Shown here one piece after another: positions 23,040 through 50,296 of a stretch of DNA of 64,000 bases (position 1 is its first letter; every line of letters starts with the position of its first letter). Below the pieces are notes generated by a model. The model searched no databases, had not been told where the DNA came from, and saw only the letters and a program-made list of their open reading frames with translations. The translations under genes and the position numbers were made by a program. This stretch comes from Ascidia mentula (lineage: Eukaryota; Chordata; Ascidiacea; Phlebobranchia; Ascidiidae): positions 9,731,001-9,795,000 of the forward strand of contig OX387197.1 in NCBI GenBank assembly GCA_947561715.1, in the 5' to 3' direction.

Positions 23040-23403
23040 TGCGTAAACAACCACCACCTTCGAACTTTTTAACCTCTCTCACAGCAGTTGCCGTGTTCTG
23101 CAAGATGGCATCAGCTGTAACAGCACGCTTCGCATCCGCAATTGTTATTAGTGCACGGGCATTTCCGTTCTGTTCACTGCATGTAGCTCGAGGCAACCAT
23201 AAGCTACCAGTGGCTGTGCAAGCTCGGCTGACTAACAGACCGTTACAGTCTGTGAAAAAACGGACAATATATCAAAAACAAGACATTTCACCATTGCTAC
23301 AATTTCGGAAACGAAAAACAAGTGCTTAATTTTCATTACGAATTCTGGCCGAAGGATATTGGTATTTACATGTTTATCAGTTTCTTCCAATGAAGAAAAT
23401 AAC

Positions 23404-23520
23404 TAATGTGGAGCCAATAATATGAATTGTGTATAAGCTGCAGACAGATGGCCACTGTTTCGACCTAAAAGGTCTCATCAGTGCAGCTGGTGTGACTATC
23501 AGACGACATTGCTGACCAAA
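23404..23520 (-). mobile_element. 117-bp insertion carrying a hammerhead ribozyme, with 12-bp target duplication
   Basis: The insertion is bounded by identical 12-bp direct repeats GAAGAAAATAAC at 23392-23403 and 23521-23532. The matching upstream region of CYP-C (about 29649-29660, GAAGAAAATATC) has only one copy and no insertion, so it is the empty site. On the minus strand the insert contains a full hammerhead fold. Its right-hand part (minus-strand 5' end) also matches sequence beside a broken copy within the nearby Penelope-like element (about 25286-25383). It looks like a short non-autonomous Penelope-associated repeat, similar in concept to a retrozyme. It codes for nothing. Confidence 0.8.
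23436..23488 (-). ncRNA. Hammerhead ribozyme (type I layout), complete core
   Basis: Read 5' to 3' on the minus strand: stem I AGCTGCA, core CTGATGA, stem II GACCT-TTT-AGGTC, core GAA, stem III ACAG-TGGCCAT-CTGT, then C (cleavage site, GTC context), and the closing stem I strand TGCAGCT. Every strictly conserved core base is present and all three stems pair without mismatch. Hammerhead ribozymes in Penelope-like retroelements are known. Self-cleavage of this copy is inferred from sequence. Confidence 0.85.
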
Positions 23521-23754: not shown

Positions 23755-25700
23755 TTTTTTTAATATATATATTTCGCCTATGCGGCATCCTCAGTATTCT
23801 AAAAACAACAAGAGTAATCGTAGTGATTAGCATCAATAGCACACATCAAGACTAACATGTAAACACTTAACCTCCAGACCGCCACCCTGTGCCAAACCAA
23901 ATGAAAAACACACAAGCATAGCAGCAGTTGAACGGTTGCAACGAAAAACTTTGTTGCGTCAGCGGTTTGCTGGCGGGTGTAAAGATAACATTTACAGGCA
24001 CCACGCCAGATGGATTAGAACGGTTTAAAAGATTAAAATGTAAATAAAAATAAAAAATAAAACAACAAGAAAACGTTGTGTTTATCGTATCCTGGGCAAC
24101 ACCATGCGTTGAATGTTAATTGTTGCATTGGTTATGGCCTGCCATTCCGCCTCGCATACGTCAAGTGTTCTGCAGCAAGGTTGTTCGGCAAACGTTACGT
24201 AGTAGCATTTATCCAGGCTAAGCTTTGTGCTTAGCGCCGTGTTGTGCTTGCTGACGTAATGCCCAAAAAATGCAGCTTTATCGTCTTTGCTTTTGCATAT
24301 CTCTGTGTGGGCTTTACCCCACAACGCTCTATGGCCACGCCACCTTGTGGAAAATGAATTTTTTGTTTGACCGACGTAGTTGGCGCCACATATCATACAT
24401 GTGGAAACATATATGCCATAGTTTCGGCAGTTTAGCACTTGTGGCAGTTGGTGGTTTTCCGTTTTGGTGTTATCGTCGAGGTTTCCTTGACCACAGACTT
24501 AGTGCCTCCTCTATTACCGCACAGACGGCAGTGTCCACACGGCTGTGATCGTCCAGCAATGGGTGTATTGCCACTGTCGTGAGCAATCTCTCGGTACTTG
24601 TGGAGTGTGCTTTCCAAAGTTGCTGGTGTTTTGTATGTAATCATCGCCCTTGGTTTAAGTTCTTTTTCTTTTTGTGTAAGGCGTACAAGTTTTGGGAAAG
24701 ATGTCGCCCAAACCAAAGGGGTTTTCGCGCTGTTTATTGGCTGTTTCGGGTGAAATCCATTTGCCATTCTTTCGCCCCTCGAAGTATGTTTTTGTAGGCT
24801 TTTGCAGGAAAACGCGATGATACACACTTTTTGCGGAGGTTATTAAGACTGGATAGGTAGTCTTCATCCCTTTCATTCAGTCTTCGTAGTCTAACTGCTT
24901 CACCATTCGCGATTGCCTGAAAGACTGACACAGGGTGATGCAAAGTGCCGTGGAGAAATTTTATGTGCATTGCCGTTTCTTTCTTTCTTGAAATCTTGTA
25001 GCACAAACCCGAACTGTGCGTCAAGGCTTGCACTTTTGCTACATCAAAAATGGCAAACTTGTCGTCCATGCCTCTCCAGTCGCGCGAAGGATGCGCAAAA
25101 GTGCCAAGGGCTGTCTACTCGATAGTTTCCATCACATTATTAGCCATTACAACAGATATGGGGGAACCCATCGCCGCCCGGAACACCTGTTGGTAATAAT
25201 AACCAGGAATGGAAAAATAGGTCGCGTTTGAACAAAATTTAAGTCGTTTAAACAAGCAAAGTGGAAGTCTTTGCTAGGCCGTTTGGTCAGCAAAGTCATC
25301 TTATCGTCACACCAGCTGCACACCTTTTTGGTCGAAACAGTGGCCATCTGTCTGCAGCTTATACACAATTCATATCATTAGCTCCACATTGCTTATCAAA
25401 ATTTAAATCCTTCTGAAATAACTTCCTGAGATGAAAGTGTTTGATCCTGAGGATAGTCGTCTGGTTTTTGAGCCTGCCATGGCTGTGGTGATTGCTTGGG
25501 ATACCGGTACATTGGTGAACAATGACACTACATTAAAGGATACCATGCTTTTATGTTGCGCCAATCGTAAGCTCTGTACTTCGGCTGCAAACTCACCAAA
25601 AAGTGCGATTATTTTAGCAAGAAACTTTGCAAGCATGTATCTCGGGAACCTTTAAACGAATCAATTGGTCTTAGGGGTACGCCTGGCTTGTGTACTGTAG
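23755..25700 (-). mobile_element. Decayed Penelope-like retroelement (GIY-YIG / reverse transcriptase)
   Basis: Reading the minus strand from right to left, several families of fragments appear. Near 25550-25600 is a reverse-transcriptase motif-A-like string (VSFNVVSLFTNVPVSQAI). Near 25140-25200 is motif-B-like GSPISVV. A DD-containing stretch lies near 25060. Linker sequence with a Cys/His cluster (CGHCRLCGN) lies near 24530. A GIY-YIG nuclease-like C terminus (YGIYVSTCMICGANYVGQ) occupies about 24082-24438. This domain order is that of Penelope-like elements. The coding sequence is clearly broken in several places, and a reverse-oriented ribozyme-bearing repeat interrupts it near 25.3 kb. 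The left end near 23755 shows an A-rich run on the coding strand. It looks old and inactive. The exact limits are uncertain. Confidence 0.8.
25314..25359 (+). ncRNA. Broken hammerhead ribozyme copy
   Basis: The plus strand carries AGCTGCA, then CACC-TTTTT-GGTC, GAAACAG, TGGCCAT, CTGTC and TGCAGCT. Stems I and III and the GAAA box match the complete copy at 23436-23488. The CTGATGA box is gone, so it should not cleave. It lies in reverse orientation inside the Penelope-like element. Confidence 0.7.
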
Positions 25701-33450: not shown

Positions 33451-35246
33451 TCTTTAATCTCAGTAGATTCTGTAAGCCACACACATATTGTATTTAGTGA
33501 ACGTAAAATCAGTGCAAGTAGTAACTTTACCTTGTAATTCGTTGCTTCAATAACCAATAAAAAATCGAAGGTTTTTCTTTGGTTTTAAGTCTTTAATATT
33601 TTGTAAAATATGGTTTGTGTGCCGGCCGTTCCAGTTTATATAGGCATCGTGATGCGGTATGTCATCAGCCGAGGAAACGACAACGTTTATGACGTTTCAC
33701 CCACATACATTGATAATGTGCTGTATTTCGTTGGTGGACTTTGGTCGCCGCCCGGCGCACAACAACTACAAACCGTCTGCCTGAAAACAAGTCGTGACGC
33801 GAAAAACCAGTGACGCACAAACTCGTAGGGGAAATTATGCGGCGGCCACGTTGGAGGTTTTGAGTATCGACTGTAAGTAAAGGGGCTTTTCTCAATACAC
33901 GCGGCACGAACTTGTACAGCGCAGAGTTGGCTTAGTTTTGCGGGCAGAAATTTTCGCTGCGGGAAAATTTGGTGTAAATTTAGCGATTTTCTCTTATAAT
34001 GTGTGTATTTTATATGAAACAAGATTGGTGTGATCTTCGACACCTAACAGTATCTCTTTGACGAAAAAGGTACAAGCACATCATAAGTTTAGCTGTTTAG
34101 AAAACCCACTCTAAATCGCCTGATTTTTGCGAGACTATTACACTGTGCGTTGCGCAACAGTCGGATAAGGTGATGACGTAGGCACAGTTGTGACGTCGTA
34201 AGCAAAACTGTTGCGCCACTCATCGAAAGAAAAACGCTCAAATCAATATCTGATCTAAGAACGGTTTGTGAATGTAAAAAGAAGGAAGAAATTTGTGTCG
34301 TTGATGTTTATCAATCAACAATAAATGGTAACTTGCTTCACTCCAAGTTCGGACTAGACGGCCATCTGTACATTAACATACAGTGTTACAAATTTAACCG
34401 CAGTTTAAGATGCAAAAAAAAGTCGTTGACAACACATCGCACACATGTGATCCTGATCTCCTGCACAACCGCAAGATCCACTATACCGTTCACACGGTTG
34501 TTCGCACAACGCATGACAGTGTGTAGAGTAATGACTCCCTTCCTTACATCGGACACCTTGTTGGGTATCAGAGAAACGGTTTCATTAGGTCCGGGAATGC
34601 CTTTAATAGTTATTGTTATGCGTGCACTCATTTCTTGTGCATTGGAACATTACTCAACAACCGGTTCGCTTTCAGAATATACTGGGTCAGCTAAAGTTTT
34701 TTTTACCTACGGTAAATTTTAACGTCGAACAAACCCTACCCCGGACTTATTTTATTTTATTTGTGTCATAATATAAAATTTCACATTCTGAAGGCTGTCC
34801 TGGCGTCAAGTTGCTTTATTTTGAGGTTAGGTTCATGAGAGAAAAATATGCGCCGATGCAAGGAAAATTTTGAGATCACATCAAATTGTAGAGGGGAGAA
34901 AGCTCTAGCAGTAGAAATTCCCCAGTTTTAAAGCAAATAATGTAGCATCAGGCACCAATTTGATATTTCTCGAACACACCTTGTGAGGCCTGATTTAGGC
35001 TTGTGAGGATGAAGTAGTGTGAGGATGAAGTAGCTTGTGAGGACACTGTATTTGCTATAATCTCGCTATGCAATAACACTTCCACCGACCCAAGTATCTT
35101 TCTCTCAACCAAGAAAAAAACGTTTTGGCGTTTATTGACGCAATAGATCCATGTGCATGCTACGTAAAAAGGTTTTATACATCAAATGTTTTCACTTGTA
35201 GGTAAACCTACATCTTCGACAGAAATAACAAAGTCAAAAGAAAATA
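33451..35246. other. Intergenic between CYP-D and CYP-E
   Basis: About 1.8 kb containing the CYP-D promoter and CYP-E 3' UTR. A 129-codon plus-strand frame at 34333-34722 and an overlapping minus-strand frame have no recognisable domain and are not called. Nothing else is seen. Confidence 0.45.
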
Positions 35247-37379
35247 TTACAGTCTTTCTTTTGCCACGATTTTGTAAGGAAGTGCGGTGAAGACTGTGCC
35301 GTTCGACCCCTTTTCAATGTCCAGAAGATTCCCGGGTTCAGGAAAAAATTCGAACTTTTGTATCATTGACGTCAGGAAAATGAAAAGCTCCATTTTGGCA
35401 AGTTGTTCTCCTACGCAATGCCGAGGTCCAACAGAGAAAGGTATGACGTAATTAGATTTGACGAAATAACCTTCAGCATCTAAATGACGTTCGGGTTTAA
35501 ACTTCTCCGGTTCATCCCATAAGTTGGGGTCGTTGTGAACTGCCCAGATATTCGGTGCCACCTGCGAAACAAATAATTTACAAAACAATACACGAAATAC
35601 AAGAGCTTGCAATGAAAACGATACATACTGTGGTTCCTTTTGGTATTTCATATCCAGCAATCTTAACATCTTCGGATGTGCAGTGAGGCAAACTAAAAGG
35701 CACCAATGTCCTGTATCTTTGAACTTCGTGAATAAATGCCGACGTGAAAGGCATATCGTCTTTCATTGACATTGAAGGTTTACCGCTTTCACCTGTAGTA
35801 TTTTACATTAGTTTCCCATCGTGACAAACTGTTCTTAAGTTGTATGGTCGTCCTACCAATTACTTGCATAACCTCCTTGTATATCTTGTCTTGGGCCTCA
35901 GGATGGTGAATAAGACAAAGAATCGCCCAACGCAAAGTGCTAGAAGTTGTCTCTGTTCCAGCCTCAAACAAGTCCCGGATGTAATGAAGAAGTTGCAGAT
36001 GCTATAATCAAACATAAGGTAATAGGTTACTCGTATGATCCAACATAGTTTGCAATTTGAAAAACGATTCATTCATCGGAAAATAGAAAATATATTACCG
36101 TAAATGTTTCTTTGTTTTCATCCATTTCAGCAAGAAATGCGTCAATAAAATCACGCAGTTCGTCGTTTTGAAATGTGGACTTGTGTTTTTCTACATCCTT
36201 TTCAAATTCACCTGCATACATTAACATTTAAAGCATATAAAAGCAAAGAGGAATAATGCTTATGACCGGGACTCACCGACGATGTGTTTGACGTCACTTT
36301 TCAGCTTAGCGACCATACCTGAAAATGGTGGAATGAACCGAAGCCCTGGCATGAAGGAGAGGGTTATGAAAAGGGCATTCATTTTCGGATTGTTAAACCT
36401 AAAGGACAATATTTATATTTTAATTTATCGTACATATTTAAATAACTATAAATCTGCCCATGCAAATATTAACATCGGCATGCACATCAATATACCAACC
36501 AATTATCCAATTCTTGAAGAAGTCCATTAAACCATGGATCATCGTAGTGGAATCGTCGTCCAAAGACAACACCACATATAACATTTGACACCGTGTTCGC
36601 CAAGATTCTCTAAAACAGTTTCAGACATAATTTCGACTGAACGTTCGTATTTAACGACAAGCAAGTGGTCCAACGAACCATAAATATCTTAATCAAAGCA
36701 ATCGTTGGTTCTTACTGTTATCGAAAATGGTTTTCCCTCTTGTTTTCTTAATTCTTCGTTCATGTAATCGACTTCTTCAATGACACGATCTTCCATGCTG
36801 TGTTTCCCCATTCCAAAACTGATATAACATAGAGTTGTGTAAGGTGAATCCAATTTAATATTCTGATTTATCACCAAAGTTTAAGGAGGCACATGGTAGC
36901 CTAAATACAAGACTTCTCACCCTCTCAAGGTCATGAGACCGAACTTTCTCTGGATCTTCCACTTTTTTCCATAATCGAGAAAACCCAGTCCGTGACCTTC
37001 CGTGAGTTCTTTGAAAAACACGTTGTTCGGTCTCCCAGAAAAATATTCACCAGATTTTACAAAAGCCTGTCCAGAAAAGTAAATTTCAAATATTGGCAAT
37101 AAATAAAATCTAAATTATTCAAACCTGCTGAATAGAATCGTAATCATTCAGAACAACCCAATCCTCACGTCCGAAACGGGTCGTCATGATCGGGCCGTAA
37201 GTTTTCCTCCACTTTGCGATAACTCGCTCGGGATAAGCGTCAAGATATGGGATGATCCCGACTAAGGGAAATCCCCGTGGTCCGGGTGGCATTTTCTTGG
37301 GTCTTCGGTACCAATAAAACAAGCCCAGCGCCACCACTAGGCAAACGGTAGAGTATGTGAAGTCAAAATATTCAAACAT
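35247..37379 (-). CDS. Cytochrome P450, CYP2-like (CYP-E)
   Basis: Nine exons on the minus strand: 37379-37125, 37066-36921, 36818-36716, 36609-36500, 36398-36277, 36211-36099, 36001-35857, 35792-35629 and 35561-35247. They give 490 residues. The start is the ATG of [14 protein letters not shown]. Landmarks are [12 protein letters not shown], a canonical C-helix WKIQR, I-helix [13 protein letters not shown]-helix EVQRYR, PER, and haem motif [10 protein letters not shown] (Cys at about 435). It is the first of four very similar tandem genes (E-H, spacing about 4-4.6 kb). Its intron 36002-36098 lacks the ribozyme-bearing insertion found at the matching place in F, G and H. It reads intact. Confidence 0.92.
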
Positions 37380-39814
37380 TTTTGAGGTTTCTGCACTGCT
37401 GCTATGAAAACCAAATAACACAGAATTTAACAACAACACAAATCCACCTTTAAAGCTGCTATGCCTAATATGTAGCATCGCCATGTACTATACTTAAAAC
37501 TGTGCATACTTAACAACAACTTTACCTCCAAATAAACACACTAAAGTAAACATTGTTTCGAGGCAGGAAATTCAGAAGGGGAATAGGTAATCAACAGATT
37601 GCACACACAACGTCACGCACTGTGCAAGCACAGGTACAGTCACCACGCATGCACATATATCTGTTAAAGTAATACTCAATAGCCAGCCCGAAGCATAATT
37701 ACAGCCTGCTGCGTTGTGTTTTTGGTACACTATTTCTCAGGCAAGCAGCATCAACTTTTCGTATTGACTTTGTCACACCCGGGCTTCGAGCAACTGGTTT
37801 ATATACGTTGCAACTCAGCCCGAGGTCACGAGACAAACAAGGAAAACGTGCCGCGTCTCGTCCGCAATACTATAGAGGTGTGTTGTGGGCGTCGTCATTA
37901 TACCTCATTATGTTGGTATCTGGGTTTTTTTTTTGTGTCATTTGTCTGTCATTGACCCAATTTTTTTAGAAATGTCACAAAAAATAAAAGCCATTTTGGA
38001 CACAATGTCCCAAAGGAAATTGGCTGGTAGATTATTCAAGTTGCTTACATTTTTGCAAACAAAAGTATTATGACGTAAATGACCAAAATAAATTGAAAAT
38101 GTCCTAAATTTTTGCTGGCATTTCGGTCATTTGACAGAAATTTTTTAGTGAAAAAAAAAACCCAGGTTGGTATTCTTTATCAACGGCCCTTTGTGGGACT
38201 CCCCATTTTTTTGAAAAAAACAAGAGTTTACGCTTGCCCATTTAAACAGTTATTACGTATATCCATGCATGGAAGCGCCTCGAATGCACTTTAAATAATA
38301 AACACCACAATTTTGATACAATCACGTGTTTCAATTGCAAGACTAATGTTTCCAAGCAACTCTAAGCATTGACAAGTTTCCTTTTTAAAAATCTCAATTG
38401 GATATTTAAGTAAAATTTAATTCTGTTATGAAAGCTAGATGTTATGATTTTTCATTTACCATCAGACTGTCATTCAACAGAGGTGACGTCATATCTTCCA
38501 GCGTGTAACCGACTTGTTGGAAGTGTGGCGCCACGCACGATGACGTGTGGCTGGTATGATGCAATACGAATGATCGAAACATGCACAACTGAAGTCATGC
38601 TGATGTATAAATGGTATATTTAGTCTGCTACACATAATAAGCTTAAACATATTTCCCAGTTAATTTAGCAGAAAAGACTTGAACCGTATCTCGGAAAAGC
38701 AAAAGTATTCCAAACACGCCAATTTTTGTTTGAACAATGTTTCATTTTGGGGGGTCACAAAAAAACGTAAAGTCCCGAAAAAGTCACAGATTTGTTTCCA
38801 AAATACGATGTAATGAAGAAGTCGGAATATGCTTGTGTGTTATCGACCGCAGTTCTGGTTTGTCGAATTAACACTGATATTCAGTAGTTAGTAGTTTGCC
38901 TTTCTTTATTAGTATTGCCATACTTGCGCTACAACCTTGTGCGGGTAATGACAGAACACAATTCCATTTAAACTTCTTTCATATTATGAAAAACATCTAT
39001 AGACGTTAAAAAAAAACGGTTACATAGATAGGTCCTCTATCTCCACCACACGGATATTATTAAAAACTATAGCTGCATCACGTCGATTTTTTTGAAATAT
39101 TGCTTTAGCTCTACCATGCGGATGTTATTAAAAATAATCCATTAGCTCCATCACGCGGGTGTTATTTAAAATAGCCACCTTTTAATATTTGGCGCCTTGC
39201 AGTGAGCTGTAAGTTTATTCTGAAAGCTTCTCTAACACACCGAGCAACTCTGTGACCATTATGCAATTTCCTTCAATTCCAATAAACTTCCGCCTTTTCT
39301 GAAGGGATGGATTTAGGTTATTTATGTGCACTCGATTAGAGAATGAACATTACGGCTCACAGTTTCAAAAAAACATCTTGTTCGTGGCTTTCTGTACCGT
39401 TTCGACTTATTTACACTACTATATATACTTATAGATCAATGTGAGGAAAATCTATATGTAATACGTCTGTATTGCCACTGTGCAATAACAGTTCCACTTT
39501 TCTCTGAACGAAAGCAACAATGTTACAAAAACATACTGCTGGTCGTTTGTTTTTACAAAAGATCAAGCCACACAACTCTTTTCACAAGGTTAATATATAC
39601 ACGCGGTAGGTGACGATCGGGAGTCGGTTAACCGCATCGTACAAGATGTAAATGGTCTCCTCGTACAGGGCATTTATATTTAAAAATTCCTAATGTAAGT
39701 GTCAAAAACATGAATAGATGAATGTACACAAGTTACGCAACAAACGCTTTATGCATTGAGGGTTTACATTTGGTTAACCCACATCACAAGCAGGAATATA
39801 TAAATCTGAAAATA
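37380..39814. other. Intergenic between CYP-E and CYP-F
   Basis: The part next to 37380 is the CYP-E promoter and resembles the upstream region of CYP-F. Stretches near 38480-38600 resemble 46970-47090, and 39565-39814 is nearly identical to 47760-48011 upstream of the CYP-H stop. These are traces of repeated segmental duplication. No gene is seen. Confidence 0.5.
39035..39180. repeat. Imperfect direct repeats (CTCCATCACGCGG type)
   Basis: Three diverged copies of a roughly 45-bp stretch based on TAGCTCCATCACGCGG followed by TGTTATTAAAAATA. A single related copy occurs near 43115 in the next duplicated unit. No function is apparent. Confidence 0.5.
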
Positions 39815-42098
39815 TTACAGTCTTTCTTTTGCCACGATTTTATAAGGAAGAGTGGTGAAGACTGTGCCGTTCGACCCCATTTCAATTTCAGGAAGATTCC
39901 CAGGTTCTGGAAGAATTTCGAACTTTTGAATCATTGAGGTCAGGAAAATGAAAAGCTCCATTTTGGCAAGTTGCTCTCCTACACAATGCCGAGGTCCAAC
40001 AGAGAAAGGTATGACGTAATTAGATTGGACGAAACAACCTTCAGCATCCAAATGACGTTCGGGTTTGAATTTCTTTGGTTCATCCCATAAGTTGGGGTCG
40101 TTGTGAACTGCCCAGATATTCGGTGCCACCTGCGGAAGAAATCATTTACAAAACAATAGTCGAAATTCAAGAGCTTGCAATGAAAACGATACATACTGTG
40201 GTTCCTTTTGGTATTTCATATCCAGCAATCTTAACATCTTCGGATGTGCAGTGAGGTAAACTAAAAGGCACCAATGTCCTGTATCTTTGAACTTCGTGAA
40301 TAAATGCCGACGTGAAAGGCATATCGTCTTTCATTGACATTGAAGGTTTGCCGCCTTCACCTGTAGTATTTTACATTAGTTTCTCATCGTTACAAACTAT
40401 TCTTAAGTTGTATGTTCGTCCTACCAATTACTTGCACAACCTCCTTGTATATCTTGTCTTGGGTGTCCGGATGGTGAATCAGACAAAGAATCGCCCAACG
40501 CAAAGTGCTGGAAGTTGTCTCTGTTCCAGCCCCAAACAAGTCCCGGATGTATTGGAGAAGTTGTAGATGCTGCAGCAGATTAAAAGAAAATACAAAAAAT
40601 AGTTAAGCGAAGGGACCTGTAAGGTCTCATCAGTGCAGCTGCTGACTGTGGAGCCAGCTTTTACATTTGCACTCACACAGATTTTCGATTTGTGGTACCT
40701 TTCGAGACGTTACAGGTGGAAACAGTGTGTACACTTTGTCTGCAGCTCTTTATGATTATTATGGCTCATTTTGCGGAAAATTAAAAAGATATTACCGTAA
40801 ATGTTTCTTTGTTTTCATCCATTTCAGCTAGATATGCGTCAATAAAATCACGTAGTTCGTCTTTCTGGAATGTGGACTTGTGTTTTTCTACTTCCTTTTC
40901 AAATTCACCTGCATGTAATCACACAAAAGGCATTTTATTGCTTACTGACTAGTAATACTGAACTTACCGATTATGAGTTTGACGTCACTTTTCAGCTCTG
41001 CGACTATACCTGAAAATGGCGGAATGAACCGAAGCCAAGGCACGAAGGTGAGGGTTATGAAAAGGGCATTCATTCTCGGATTGTTAAACCTTAAAGAAAG
41101 GATGTTTTTCTTACACATTTGAAAACAGGATTGAAATATTTGCAGAAAAATTAACATTGGCATGCACACCAATATACCAACCACTTATCCAATTCTTGAA
41201 GAAGGTCGTTAAACCAAGGGTCGTCGTAGTGGAATCTTCGTCCAAACACAACCCCACATATCACATTTGACACAGTGTTTGCCAAGATTCTCTGATAGAA
41301 ATTAAGCAGTGTTCGATGAAATTTCGACAAAAATTTTTCGGCAAGCAATTTATCAAAAGTAGTTTGTTTTCAAAGCAATCGTTGGCTCTTACTGTCATCG
41401 AAAATGGTTTTCCCTGTTGTTTTCTTATCTCTCCGTTCATGTAATCGACTTCTTCAATGACACGATCTTCCATGCTGTGTTTTCCCATTCCAAAACTGAT
41501 ATAACATAGAGTTGCTTAACCTTTGAATTTTGTAATATTTAGAGCTTTAAATCTTCACAGTATCCAAAATTTCATGCAATTAAAAAAATTTTCTCGAAGA
41601 TTGAGTCACGAGATATTATTTAGGTTTGAAAAATTCTCACCCTCTCAACGTCATGAGACCAAACTTTCTCTGTATCTTCCACTTTTTTCCATAATCGAGC
41701 AAGGCCAGTCCGTTACCAGCGGAGAGGTGGTGAAAAACCGCAATGTTCGGTCTCCCAGAGAAAGAATCACCAGATTTTACAAGGGCCTGTCCAGACAAAG
41801 TAAATTTCAAATAAACGCAAAACAAAATCTTAATTATTCAAACCTGCTGAATATAATCGTAATCATTTAGAACAACCCAATCCTCACGTCCGAAACGGGT
41901 CGTCATGATCGGGCCGTAAGTTTTCCTCCACTTTGCGATAACTCGCTCGGGATAAGCGTCAAGATATGGGATGATCCCCACTAAGGGGAATCCCCTTGGA
42001 CCGGGTGGCATTTTCTCGGGTCTTCGGTACCAATAGAACAAACCCAGCGCCATCACAAGGCAAACGATAGAGTATGTGAAGTCAAAATATTGAAACAT
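39815..42098 (-). CDS. Cytochrome P450, CYP2-like (CYP-F)
   Basis: Nine exons on the minus strand: 42098-41844, 41786-41641, 41495-41393, 41291-41182, 41089-40968, 40908-40796, 40569-40425, 40360-40197 and 40129-39815. They give 490 residues with the same exon lengths as CYP-E. The start is the ATG of [14 protein letters not shown]. Motifs are [13 protein letters not shown]-helix WKIQR, I-helix [13 protein letters not shown]-helix EVQRYR, PER and haem [10 protein letters not shown]. Exons 2-9 and their introns are nearly identical to CYP-H. The intron 40570-40795 holds a broken ribozyme repeat. It reads intact. Confidence 0.92.
40614..40747. ncRNA. Rearranged hammerhead ribozyme repeat in a CYP-F intron
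   Basis: The minus strand at 40640-40614 carries the first half of a hammerhead (AGCTGCA, CTGATGA, GACCT-TAC-AGGTC). The plus strand near 40729-40747 carries a second half (GAAACA ... TGTC, TGCAGCT). The two halves face in opposite directions about 90 bp apart, so no single strand forms a complete core. It is a relic of an inverted or recombined pair of copies. Confidence 0.65.
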
Positions 42099-43766: not shown

Positions 43767-46004
43767 TTACAGTCTTTCTTTTGCCACGATTTTGTAAGGA
43801 AGAGTGGTGAAAACTGTGCCGTTCGATCCCTTTTCAATTTCAGGAAGATTCCCAGGTTCTGGAAGAATTTCGAACTTTTGAATCATTGAGGTCAGGAAAA
43901 TGAAAAGCTCCATTTTGGCAAGTTGCTCTCCTACACAATGCCGAGGTCCAACAGAGAAAGGTATGACGTAATTAGATTTGACGAAACAACCTTCAGCATC
44001 TAAATGGCGTTCGGGTTTAAACTTCTCCGGTTCATCCCATAAGTTGGGGTCGTTGTGAACTGCCCAAATATTCGGTGCCACCTGCGGAACAAAGTATTTA
44101 CAAAACAATAGACGAAATACAAGAGCTTGCAATGAAAACGATACATACTGTGGTTCCTTTTGGTATTTCATATCCAGCAATCTTAACATCTTCAGATGTG
44201 CAGTGAGGTAAACTAAAAGGCGCCAATGTCCTGTATCTTTGAACTTCATGAATAAATGCCGACGTGAAAGGCATATCGTCTTTCATTGACATTGAAGGTT
44301 TGCCGCTTTCACCTATTACATTTTATATTAGTTTATCATTTTGACAAACTATTCTTAAATTATATGTTCGTCCTACCAATTACTTGCACAACCTCCTTGT
44401 ATATCTTGTCTTGAGTCTCAGGATAGTGAATAAGACAAAGAATCGCCCAACGCAAAGTGCTGGACGTTGTCTCTGTTCCAGCCTCAAACAAATCCCGGAT
44501 GTAATGAAGAAGTTGCAGATGCTTTAACCAAACATAAGGTATTAGGTTACTCGTATGATCTAGCATAGTTTGCAATTTGCTATAGACAGGCTGTACACAC
44601 TGTTTCGACCAACATAAGGTCTCATCAGTATAGCTGTCTATGAAGCTCTCTATGTTTATTATGGCTGTTTTTGCGGAAAATTTTAAATATATTACCGTAA
44701 ATGTTTCTTTGTTTTTGTCCATTTCAGCTAGATATGCGTCAATAAAATCACGCAGTTCGTCTTTTTGAAATGTGGACTTGTGCGTTTCTACATCCTTTTC
44801 AAATTCACCTGCATATAACTACATTTCAAGCAAACGGCCTTTTATTGCCTACTAACGAGTAATACTGAACTTACCGATTATGAGTTTGACGTCACTTTTC
44901 AGCTGGGCGACTATACCTGAAAATGGCGGAATGAACCGAAGCCACGGCATGAAGGAGAGGGTTATGAAAAGAGCATTCATTCTCGGATTGTTAAACCTTA
45001 AAAAAATTGTTTTTCTTACACATTTGAAAACACGATTGAAATATGTGCAAAAAAATAACATCGCCATGCACGCCAATATACCAACCACTTATCCAATTCT
45101 TGAAGAAGGTCGTTAAACCAAGGGTCGTCGTAGTGGAATCTTCGTCCAAACACAACCCCACATATCACATTTGACACAGTGTTTGCCAAGATTCTCTGAT
45201 AGAAGTTAAACAGTGTTCGATAAAATTTCGACCAAAATTCTTCGGCAAGCAATTTATCAAAAAGTAGTTTGTTTTCAAAGTAATCGTTGGCTCTTACTGT
45301 CATCGAAAATGGTTTTCCCTGTTGTTTTCTTATCTCTTCGTTCATGTAATCGACTTCTTCAATGACACGATCTTCCATGCTGTGTTTCCCCATTCCAAAA
45401 CTGATAAAACATAGAGTTGCTTAATCTTTGAATTTTGTAATATTTAGAGCTTTAAATCTTCACAGTATCCAAAATTTCATGCAATTGAACAATTTTTCTT
45501 GAAGATTGAATCACGAGATATTATTTTAGGTTTGAAAAATTCTCACCCTCTCAACGTCATGAGACCAAACTTTCTCTGTATCTTCCACTTTTTTCCATAA
45601 TCGAGAAAGGCCAGTCCGTTACCAGCGGAGAGGTCGTGAAGAACCGCAATGTTCGGTCTCCCAGAGAAAGAATCACCAGATTTTACAAGGGCCTGTCCAT
45701 ACAAAGTACATGTAAAATAAACTCCAAACAAAATCTAACTTATTCAAACCTGCTGAATAGAATCGTAATCATTCAGAACAACCCAATCCTCACGTCCGAA
45801 ACGGGTCGTCATGATCGGGCCGTAAGTTTTCCTCCACTTTGCGATAACTCGCTCGGGATAAGCGCCAAGATATGGGATGATCCCGACTAAGGGGAATCCC
45901 CTTGGACCGGGTGGCATTTTCTTGGGTCTTCGGTACCAATAGAACAAGCCCAGCGCCACCACCAGGCAAACGGTAGTGTTTGTAAAGTTTAAACAGTCAA
46001 TCAT
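43767..46004 (-). CDS. Cytochrome P450, CYP2-like (CYP-G)
   Basis: Nine exons on the minus strand: 46004-45750, 45692-45547, 45400-45298, 45195-45086, 44996-44875, 44808-44696, 44521-44377, 44312-44149 and 44081-43767. They give 490 residues. The start is the ATG of MIDCLNFTNTTVCL. Motifs are [13 protein letters not shown]-helix WKIQR, I-helix [13 protein letters not shown]-helix EVQRYR, PER and haem [10 protein letters not shown]. Its N-terminal leader differs from E and F and resembles CYP-H. The intron 44522-44695 contains a complete hammerhead ribozyme on the gene's own strand. It reads intact. Confidence 0.92.
44579..44634 (-). ncRNA. Hammerhead ribozyme in a CYP-G intron, complete core
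   Basis: Read on the minus strand, which is also the CYP-G sense strand: stem I GCTATA, core CTGATGA, stem II GACC-TTATGTT-GGTC, core GAA, stem III ACAG ... CTGT, cleavage base C in GTC, closing strand TATAGC. All stems pair. Stem I differs from the 23436-23488 copy (AGCTGCA/TGCAGCT) on both sides at once, which is covariation that supports the fold. If active, it would cut the CYP-G pre-mRNA within the intron between exons 6 and 7. Confidence 0.82.
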
Positions 46005-48011: not shown

Positions 48012-50296
48012 TTACAGTCTTTCTTTTGCCACGATTTTATAAGGAAGAGTGGTGAAGACTGTGCCGTTCGACCCCATTTCAATTTCAGGAAGATTCCCAG
48101 GTTCTGGAAGAATTTCGAACTTTTGAATCATTGAGGTCAGGAAAATGAAAAGCTCCATTTTGGCAAGTTGCTCTCCTACACAATGCCGAGGTCCAACAGA
48201 GAAAGGTATGACGTAATTAGATTGGACGAAACAACCTTCAGCATCCAAATGACGTTCGGGTTTGAATTTCTCCGGTTCATCCCATAAGTTGGGGTCGTTG
48301 TGAACTGCCCAGATATTCGGTGCCACCTGCGGAAGAAATCATTTACAAAACAATAGTCGAAATTCAAGAGCTTGCAATGAAAACGATACATACTGTGGTT
48401 CCTTTTGGTATTTCATATCCAGCAATCTTAACATCTTCGGATGTGCAGTGAGGTAAACTAAAAGGCAACAATGTCCTGTATCTTTGAACTTCGTGAATAA
48501 ATGCCGACGTGAAAGGCATATCGTCTTTCATTGACATTGAAGGTTTGCCGCCTTCACCTGTAGTATTTTACATTAGTTTCCCATCGTGACAAACTATTCT
48601 TAAGTTGTGTGTTCGTCCTACCAATTACTTGCACAACCTCCTTGTATATCTTGTCTTGGGTGTCCGGATAGTGAATAAGACAAAGAATCGCCCAACGCAA
48701 AGTGCTGGAAGTTGTCTCTGTTCCAGCCCCAAACAAGTCCCGGATGTATTGGAGAAGTTGTAGATGCTGCAGCAGATTAAAAGAAAATACAAAAAATAGT
48801 TAAGCGAAGGGACCTGTAAGATCTCATCAGTGCAGCTGCTGACTGTGGAGCCAGCTTTTACATTTGCACTCACACAGATTTTCGATTTGTGGTACCTTTC
48901 GAGACGTTACAGGTGGAAACAGTGTGTACACTTTGTCTGCAGCTCTTTATGATTATTATGGCTCATTTTGCGAAAAATTAAAAAGATATTACCGTAAATG
49001 TTTCTTTGTTTTCGTCCATTTCAGCTAGATATGCGTCAATAAAATCACGTATTTCGTCTTTCTGGAATGTGGACTTGTGTTTTTCTACTTCCTTTTCAAA
49101 TTCACCTGCATGTAATCACACAAAAGGCATTTTATTGCTTACTGACGGGTAATACTGAACTTACCGATTATGAGTTTGACGTCACTTTTCAGCTCTGCGA
49201 CTATACCTGAAAATGGCGGAATGAACCGAAACCAAGGCACGAAGGTGAGGGTTACGAAAAGGGCATTCATTCTCGGATTGTTAAACCTTAAAGAAAGGAT
49301 GTTTTTCTTACACATTTGTAAACACGATTGAAATATTTGCAGAAAAATTAACATTGGCATGCACACCAATATACCAACCACTTATCCAATTCTTGAAGAA
49401 GGTCGTTAAACCAAGGGTCGTCGTAGTGGAATCTTCGTCCAAACACAACCCCACATATCACATTTGACACAGTGTTTGCCAAGATTCTCTGATAGAAGTT
49501 AAACAGTGTTCGATAAAATTTCGACCAAAATTCTTCGGCAAGCAATTTATCAAAAGTAGTTTGTTTTCAAAGTAATCGTTGGTTCTTACTGTCATCGAAA
49601 ATGGTTTTCCCTGTTGTTTTCTTATCTCTTCGTTCATGTAATCGACTTCTTCAATGACACGATCTTCCATGCTGTGTTTTCCCATTCCAAAACTGATATA
49701 ACATAGAGTTGCTTAACCTTTGAATTTTGTATTATTTAGAGCTTTAAATCTTCACAGTATCCAAAATTTCATGCAATTAAAAAAATTTTCTCGAAGATTG
49801 AGTCACAAGATATAATTTTAGGTTTGAAAAATTCTCACCCTCTCAACGTCATGAGACCAAACTTTCTCTGTATCTTCCACTTTTTTCCATAATCGAGCAA
49901 GGCCAGTCCGTTACCAGCGGAGAGGTGGCGAAAAACCGCAATGTTCGGTCTCCCAGAGAAAGAATCACCAGATTTTACAAGGGCCTGTCCAGACAAAGTA
50001 AATTTCAAATAAACGCAAAACAAAATCTTAATTATTCAAACCTGCTGAATAGAATCGTAATCATTCAGAACAACCCAATCCTCACGTCCGAAACGGGTCG
50101 TCGTGATCGGGCCGTAAGTTTTCCTCCACTTTGCGATAACTCGCTCGGGATAAGCGTCAAGAAATGGGATGATACCGACTAAGGGGAATCCCCGTGGTCC
50201 GGGCGGCATTTTCTTGGGTCTGCGGTACCAATAGAACAAGCCCAGCGCCACCACTAGGCAAACTGCAGTGTTTGTATAGTTTAAACAGTCGTTCAT
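48012..50296 (-). CDS. Cytochrome P450, CYP2-like (CYP-H), mosaic of F-like and G-like sequence
   Basis: Nine exons on the minus strand: 50296-50042, 49984-49839, 49692-49590, 49488-49379, 49286-49165, 49105-48993, 48766-48622, 48557-48394 and 48326-48012. They give 490 residues. The start is the ATG of MNDCLNYTNTAVCL. Motifs are [13 protein letters not shown]-helix WKIQR, I-helix [13 protein letters not shown]-helix EVQRYR, PER and haem [10 protein letters not shown]. From intron 1 to the 3' flank it is nearly identical to CYP-F. Its leader and upstream region match CYP-G instead. It reads intact. Confidence 0.92.
48811..48944. ncRNA. Rearranged hammerhead ribozyme repeat in a CYP-H intron
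   Basis: This is the same arrangement as at 40614-40747: a minus-strand half with AGCTGCA and CTGATGA, and a plus-strand half with GAAACA ... TGTC and TGCAGCT. One extra change (GATCTC for GGTCTC on the plus strand) weakens stem II. It is a co-duplicated relic in the intron 48767-48992. Confidence 0.65.

Follow-up and report, generated by a model that had tools for sequence, protein, structure and literature searches.

A hammerhead ribozyme in a cytochrome P450 intron of Ascidia mentula as the probable relic of a retrozyme moved by Penelope-like elements

Introduction

Does a complete hammerhead ribozyme in the sense strand of an intron serve the gene that carries it, or is it what remains of a mobile element? 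This question is raised by a locus of the ascidian Ascidia mentula, within a stretch of 64,000 nucleotides (assembly GCA_947561715.1, contig OX387197.1, positions 9,731,001 to 9,795,000 of the forward strand) that was analysed as a whole and is referred to below as the window. If the hammerhead belongs to a mobile element, a second question concerns the machinery that moved it. In the available portions of two papers (PMC7229834 and PMC7761336), Penelope-like elements (PLEs) are proposed as strong or likely candidate movers of animal retrozymes, mainly on the grounds of their type I hammerheads, their tandem arrangement and the co-occurrence of both kinds of element in the same genomes.

Results

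A complete type I hammerhead core was found on the minus strand at 44579-44634, exactly where the preliminary description had placed it (Table 1). Read from 44634 to 44579, its 5' part consists of stem I GCTATA, CTGATGA, stem II GACC with loop TTATGTT and GGTC, and GAA, and its 3' part of stem III ACAG with loop TGTGTACAGC and CTGT, then C17 and stem I TATAGC. The core CTGATGA...GAAA, a NUH cleavage triplet and three helices with an open stem I, which characterize type I hammerheads, are thus all present, with 4, 6 and 4 intact pairs in stems II, I and III, respectively, according to the family parse. A chance or degenerate match without ribozyme history could be suspected, since Rfam returned no match at gathering scores over the whole window, the focal copy falling short of the cut-off of the hammerhead model, and relaxed limits on 44300-44900 yielded only a sub-threshold RAGATH-1-hammerhead (20.5 bits against a gathering score of 56.3; E 0.68). 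However, a loose core pattern matched the window twice (23457-23481 and 44602-44628) where 0.10 matches were expected by chance, and a strict one matched the 196-Mb genome 1829 times (909 forward and 920 reverse) with none for the reversed-pattern control; together with the family context described below, these controls already refute a chance origin. The string CCTTATGTT occurs twice on the same strand, in the region of loop II (44607-44621) and near the 3' splice site (44522-44545). We considered loop II TTATGTT as a copy of the 3' end of the intron, but the resemblance is likely to be due to chance, as TTATG is found at this place in some copies of the same family.

The hammerhead is flanked on both sides by same-strand exon pieces of a cytochrome P450 gene, in which Pfam recognized the p450 domain in two pieces. 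As these pieces lie on the minus strand, the hammerhead is in sense orientation, as the preliminary description had held. The intron begins with GT at 44695 and ends with AG at 44522, both dinucleotides occupying equivalent aligned places in three paralogue introns, and intron base 111 is the last before the predicted cut. P450 genes are arranged in tandem here, those near 36, 40 and 48 kb being paralogous to the focal one. The equivalent introns at 40 and 48 kb each contain a hammerhead in inverted orientation that has decayed and a truncated one in sense orientation, and the intron at 36 kb has none, so that an intact hammerhead is kept in none of the three paralogues in the window. The 36-kb gene (35240-37398) is a mosaic with respect to the focal gene, which it matches at 93.7% downstream of 44579 and at 79.9% upstream of 44674, and the break coincides with the insertion site. 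We therefore dropped its intron as a clean empty site, a converted intron being as likely as a pre-insertion one. The length of the focal intron (44360-44818 region) is a multiple of three and it has no stop in the frame of the gene, so a retained intron would be read through; stops are present, by eye, in the introns at 36 and 40 kb.

Table 1. Positions of the features discussed, in window coordinates
Feature	Position	Strand	Basis
Type I hammerhead core with three helices, family B	44579..44634	-	Sequence reading, pattern match, family parse
Catalytic CTGATGA	44622..44628	-	Sequence reading
Catalytic GAA (G12-A14)	44604..44606	-	Sequence reading
Predicted cleavage site, after C17 (44585), between bases 44585 and 44584	44584..44585	-	Hammerhead consensus
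Sense arm of family B element, ending at the short end	44579..44628	-	B unit 1-42 = 44628-44584, 91%; final bases read by eye
Inverted arm of the same element, long end, about 42 nt	44634..44675	+	B unit 31-72 = 44628-44671, 77%, E 0.004; to unit 75; end by eye
Decoy ATAGACAG, complementary to CTGTCTAT at the cleavage site	44634..44641	-	Predicted pairing
P450 intron holding the hammerhead, 174 nt, phase 0	44522..44695	-	GT/AG, exon continuity, four-paralogue alignment
Head-to-head family B remnant with decayed hammerheads, paralogous intron (L012)	40614..40775		Paralogue alignment, unit mapping
Head-to-head family B remnant, second paralogous intron (L011)	48811..48972		Paralogue alignment, unit mapping
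Third paralogue, equivalent intron position, 17 unmatched nt, without hammerhead	36060..36076	-	Paralogue alignment
Family A retrozyme copy, intact hammerhead 23457-23481, 12-bp target duplication	23399..23520	-	Pattern match, unit mapping
Third window copy, family A, without the first 8 nt of the hammerhead core	25257..25398	+	Unit mapping

When the focal intron was used to search the genome, 42 matches were obtained, most of them spanning the hammerhead alone (best 40 of 99 candidates scored). The copies fall into two tandem-repeat families of the animal retrozyme type, with units of 285 nt (family A) and 287 nt (family B). Family A, represented in the window by the copy at 23457, has the stem III loop TGGCCA and 285-nt tandem units; family B, to which the focal copy belongs, has TGTGTACACC and a spacing of 287 nt in L113. 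The commonest stem I in both is AGCTGCA/TGCAGCT. Both families consist of tandem units that each contain one type I hammerhead and fall within the range of about 150-450 bp, the focal copy being a fragment, and they share with the non-LTR retrozymes of animals (Cervera and de la Pena 2020, PMC7229834; available portions) type I hammerheads, tandem units of a few hundred bp, many copies and target duplications of more than 4 bp. The focal object is therefore of a known kind, an animal-retrozyme hammerhead, and its descent from a mobile family, which the preliminary description had put forward, is borne out by arms matching the B unit.

In a pattern-chosen sample of 46 parsed family B copies, drawn from 60 genome regions, the core was kept in 32 and the core with all helices in 11, so an intact copy is not rare. 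The third window copy should be inactive, judging from the missing core nucleotides. Near-identical tandem family A units (98-100%) at L060, L057 and L067 suggest a recent spread. The palindrome GTGTACAC is frequent in family B stem III loops, and could allow two ribozymes to pair as dimers.

The preliminary description compared the focal hammerhead with the copy at 23436-23488. The differences that it gave for stem I and loop II are correct, but the stem III loop also differs, because the two copies belong to different families. With respect to the family form, stem I is indeed altered on both sides (GCTATA/TATAGC against AGCTGCA/TGCAGCT). The paired change had also been taken as direct evidence of selection on the fold, and this interpretation did not hold in our covariation analysis of 100 distinct parsed copies (25 of family A and 75 of family B), a non-random sample picked by similarity or by stem III pattern. 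Among 600 stem I cells, 92 had a one-sided change with loss of the pair, 19 were G-U and only 6 were changed on both sides and still paired. Five paired double-change cells were counted in family B with the focal copy included, two of them in the focal copy itself, a value reached by 8% of 2000 shuffles; the 74 other family B copies had three such cells against a shuffle mean of 2.1, reached by 35%, and hence no excess. There is no family-wide stem I covariation, and the focal double change remains unusual; selection on stem I, as read from paired changes, is unsupported beyond the focal copy.

The exact 5' variant, GCTATACTGATGAGACC, occurs twice in the genome, in the focal copy and in L070, a family A copy that has lost the catalytic G12 and in which GCTATA/TATAGC can still form (judged by eye; its 3' side was aligned differently by the automatic parse). 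A source element already carrying the variant, or templated mutation in an inverted repeat, explains the paired change as well as selection does. The second of these, in which quasi-palindrome correction in the inverted repeat, rather than selection, would have made or spread the change, draws on the perfect 8-nt complement now common to the upstream inverted arm and the 3' strand of the ribozyme, and on the presence of TGTCTAT in both where the family has TGTCTGC. However, a variant source element could equally have supplied these changes, and L070, where no inverted arm was detected, can form this stem too, so we consider templated mutation a tentative and rather doubtful explanation.

Mapping of the units on 3-kb loci distinguished sense arms, inverted arms and tandem units, whose outward ends cluster at two sites about 30 nt apart, referred to here as short and long. 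In family A (62 ends), 22 ends lie at unit 44-67, none at 68-75 and 30 at 76-99, with nine running on and one shorter; in family B (95 ends), the corresponding numbers are 57 at unit 40-62, three at 63-70 and 32 at 71-95, with three running on. Head-to-head insertions had one short and one long end in 21 of 24 cases (p 0.00014 if the ends are independent and equal, with class borders set after inspection of the data), corresponding to the PLE-type arrangement of head-to-head arms, one of which bears a 30-40-bp tail; the three exceptions are L002, L051 and L017, the last of which is at the class border. The 24 insertions exclude same-place duplicates (L006-L008, L054, L058, L061 and L069) and irregular loci (L003, L011, L012, L045, L053 and L055). 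Target duplications were significant (p<0.05) at 28 of 46 loci when compared with 1500 random flank pairs (about 2 expected; L005 and L007 are copies of one insertion), and 19 of these 28 were 12-14 bp long. The focal copy fits the two-end layout, its sense arm extending to unit 42 and its inverted arm to unit 75; a target duplication was sought at this locus and none was found. The often head-to-head arrangement and the two fixed end zones of families A and B distinguish them from the retrozymes of PMC7229834, in the available text of which they are not described and the word 'inverted' has no occurrence. We found no description of the two-end layout of retrozymes in the literature searched, the scope of which was largely limited to papers outside subscription.

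At least 121 GIY-YIG matches were obtained in the genome (150 of 382 candidates scored). The proteins of two PLE loci, L131 and L132, matched both RVT_1 and GIY-YIG, and that of L133 matched GIY-YIG alone (E 0.001). A hammerhead-like CTGAAGA...CGAAAC word is present in L132 and L133, and this pattern is absent from L131 and L134. In the insertions at L132 and L133, one inverted arm ends short and the other long; their tails measure 42 and 33 nt and their duplications 12 bp, the end strings of these two having been picked by eye with no null model. The available portions of PMC11167929 and PMC3846280 describe PLEs with GIY-YIG as inverted repeats placed head-to-head, one arm of which may bear a tail of 30-40 bp, with short target duplications (8-10 bp in PMC3846280) and a hammerhead-like motif, all of which we observed in L132 and L133. 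The retrozyme unit, by contrast, is only 285-287 nt long, would not be expected to hold an open frame and has no sequence in common with the four PLE loci read (L131-L134; units of both families compared at E 0.1), and an end sequence shared between retrozymes and PLEs was likewise not found in these loci. One GIY-YIG match (L137), lying close to a family B copy, was considered as a possible composite, and the unit search gave the family B copy alone. At L131 (G000:C67:6140500-6147400), tandem Penelope-like copies 2870 bp apart have two 892-residue open frames, which suggests recent activity. Two matches to glycosyl hydrolase 6 were also obtained in the genome, in keeping with a tunicate, the cellulose synthase of tunicates bearing this domain.

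Folding of the hammerhead alone placed the active fold 1.3 kcal/mol above the optimum, with a modelled share of 0.028. In context, the predicted gap increased to 10.1 kcal/mol with 10 nt upstream, 10.4 kcal/mol in the intron and 11.1 kcal/mol in a 351-nt stretch. This penalty of about 10 kcal/mol arises because the upstream decoy (Table 1) pairs with the cleavage site. With 60/40-nt context, 29 of 52 intact-core family B copies were scored and had a median gap of 3.4, against 10.7 for the focal copy, a value equalled or exceeded in three of the 29, the focal copy included; in family A, 20 of 23 copies were scored, with a median gap of 1.5. These values are predictions from a calculation that ignores tertiary contacts, dimers, co-transcriptional order and proteins.

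Discussion

We propose that the focal motif is the relic of a PLE-moved retrozyme that was inserted into an intron of a P450-family gene and is trapped by its own inverted remnant, a reading that we hold to be probable. On this view, the inserted retroelement would be short, non-autonomous and of the animal retrozyme type, and the motif its ribozyme part. The hammerhead would serve, in the life cycle of such an element, to divide multimeric element RNA into single units; this RNA could be reverse-transcribed from one or the other of two internal sites separated by about 30 nt, a mechanism suggested by the observed layout. Priming on both strands of a 12-bp staggered break would then produce copies that are truncated at their 5' ends and joined head-to-head, with a short end on one side and a long end on the other. 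The PLEs of this genome are the best candidates for the machinery. The insertion in the focal intron would since have lost most of its middle, so that the inverted remnant of the long end came to lie immediately ahead of the surviving hammerhead, where it may pair with the cleavage site.

The layout of the retrozymes looks PLE-made because two PLEs of the same genome have the same two-end layout and 12-bp duplications, to which published PLE features can be added. According to the available portions of PMC11167929, both strands are cut and extended by a lizard PLE, which begins reverse transcription at two adjacent internal sites bounding the genomic PLE tail; PMC3846280, as far as its available portions go, reports inverted repeats of which one carries a tail. 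The layout of the retrozymes and of the two PLEs therefore supports the published idea that Penelope machinery moves animal retrozymes. Several observations count against this reading: no target duplication was found for the focal copy, whose inverted arm is short and weakly matched (77%, E 0.004), no sequence is common to the four PLE loci and the retrozyme ends, and three of 24 insertions break the two-end rule. Furthermore, in the available portions of PMC11167929 the start sites in vitro are reported not to differ between the top and bottom strands, and such strand independence does not predict one end of each kind.

Machinery of the LINE type could be considered instead. Twin priming also yields head-to-head, 5'-truncated arms with target duplications, and the outer end of its inverted arm would fall at varied internal places. 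However, both arms of the retrozymes end in the same two narrow zones, like the two PLEs read, so that LINE-type machinery, rather than PLEs, appears an unlikely mover.

The preliminary description had also raised the possibility that the hammerhead acts on the host gene. If kept by host selection, it would cleave either the pre-mRNA of the P450 gene or the lariat after excision, and so modulate splicing or the turnover of the intron. The intact core and helices, complete in only 11 of the 46 copies of the pattern-chosen sample, the alteration of stem I on both sides and the sense-strand location are all compatible with such a role, and the available portions of PMC6155905 report conserved intronic hammerheads in amniotes, such as that of RECK, which are likewise of type I and in the sense strand of an intron. 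Unlike these, the focal hammerhead is not kept among the window paralogues; moreover, family-wide covariation is absent, and the predicted trap is matched or exceeded in few of the scored family B copies. We therefore regard host selection as very improbable. Because pairing with the inverted remnant can block the cleavage site, we expect the pre-mRNA to be cut rarely, if at all. The focal copy is most likely an insertion relic that cuts little, and an active pre-mRNA switch, though possible, is unlikely.

The insertion is probably of minor consequence for its P450 host gene: it is a passenger of the intron, and one that may have marked a recombination edge between tandem P450 paralogues. The scars left by the element hint at the copying machinery, and the layout of the ends is the part worth following. 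Insertion ends are more direct evidence on the mover of retrozymes than the published arguments from shared features. The PLE question can be tested in this genome, where copies are numerous and several PLE frames seem intact. On balance, we favour the view that animal retrozymes are parasites of PLEs and that an insertion uses each start site once, each strand of the 12-bp staggered break being extended from its own template site, about 30 nt from the other; the copy in the P450 intron would be one such event. If this is true, every full insertion event would leave one short and one long arm, head-to-head.
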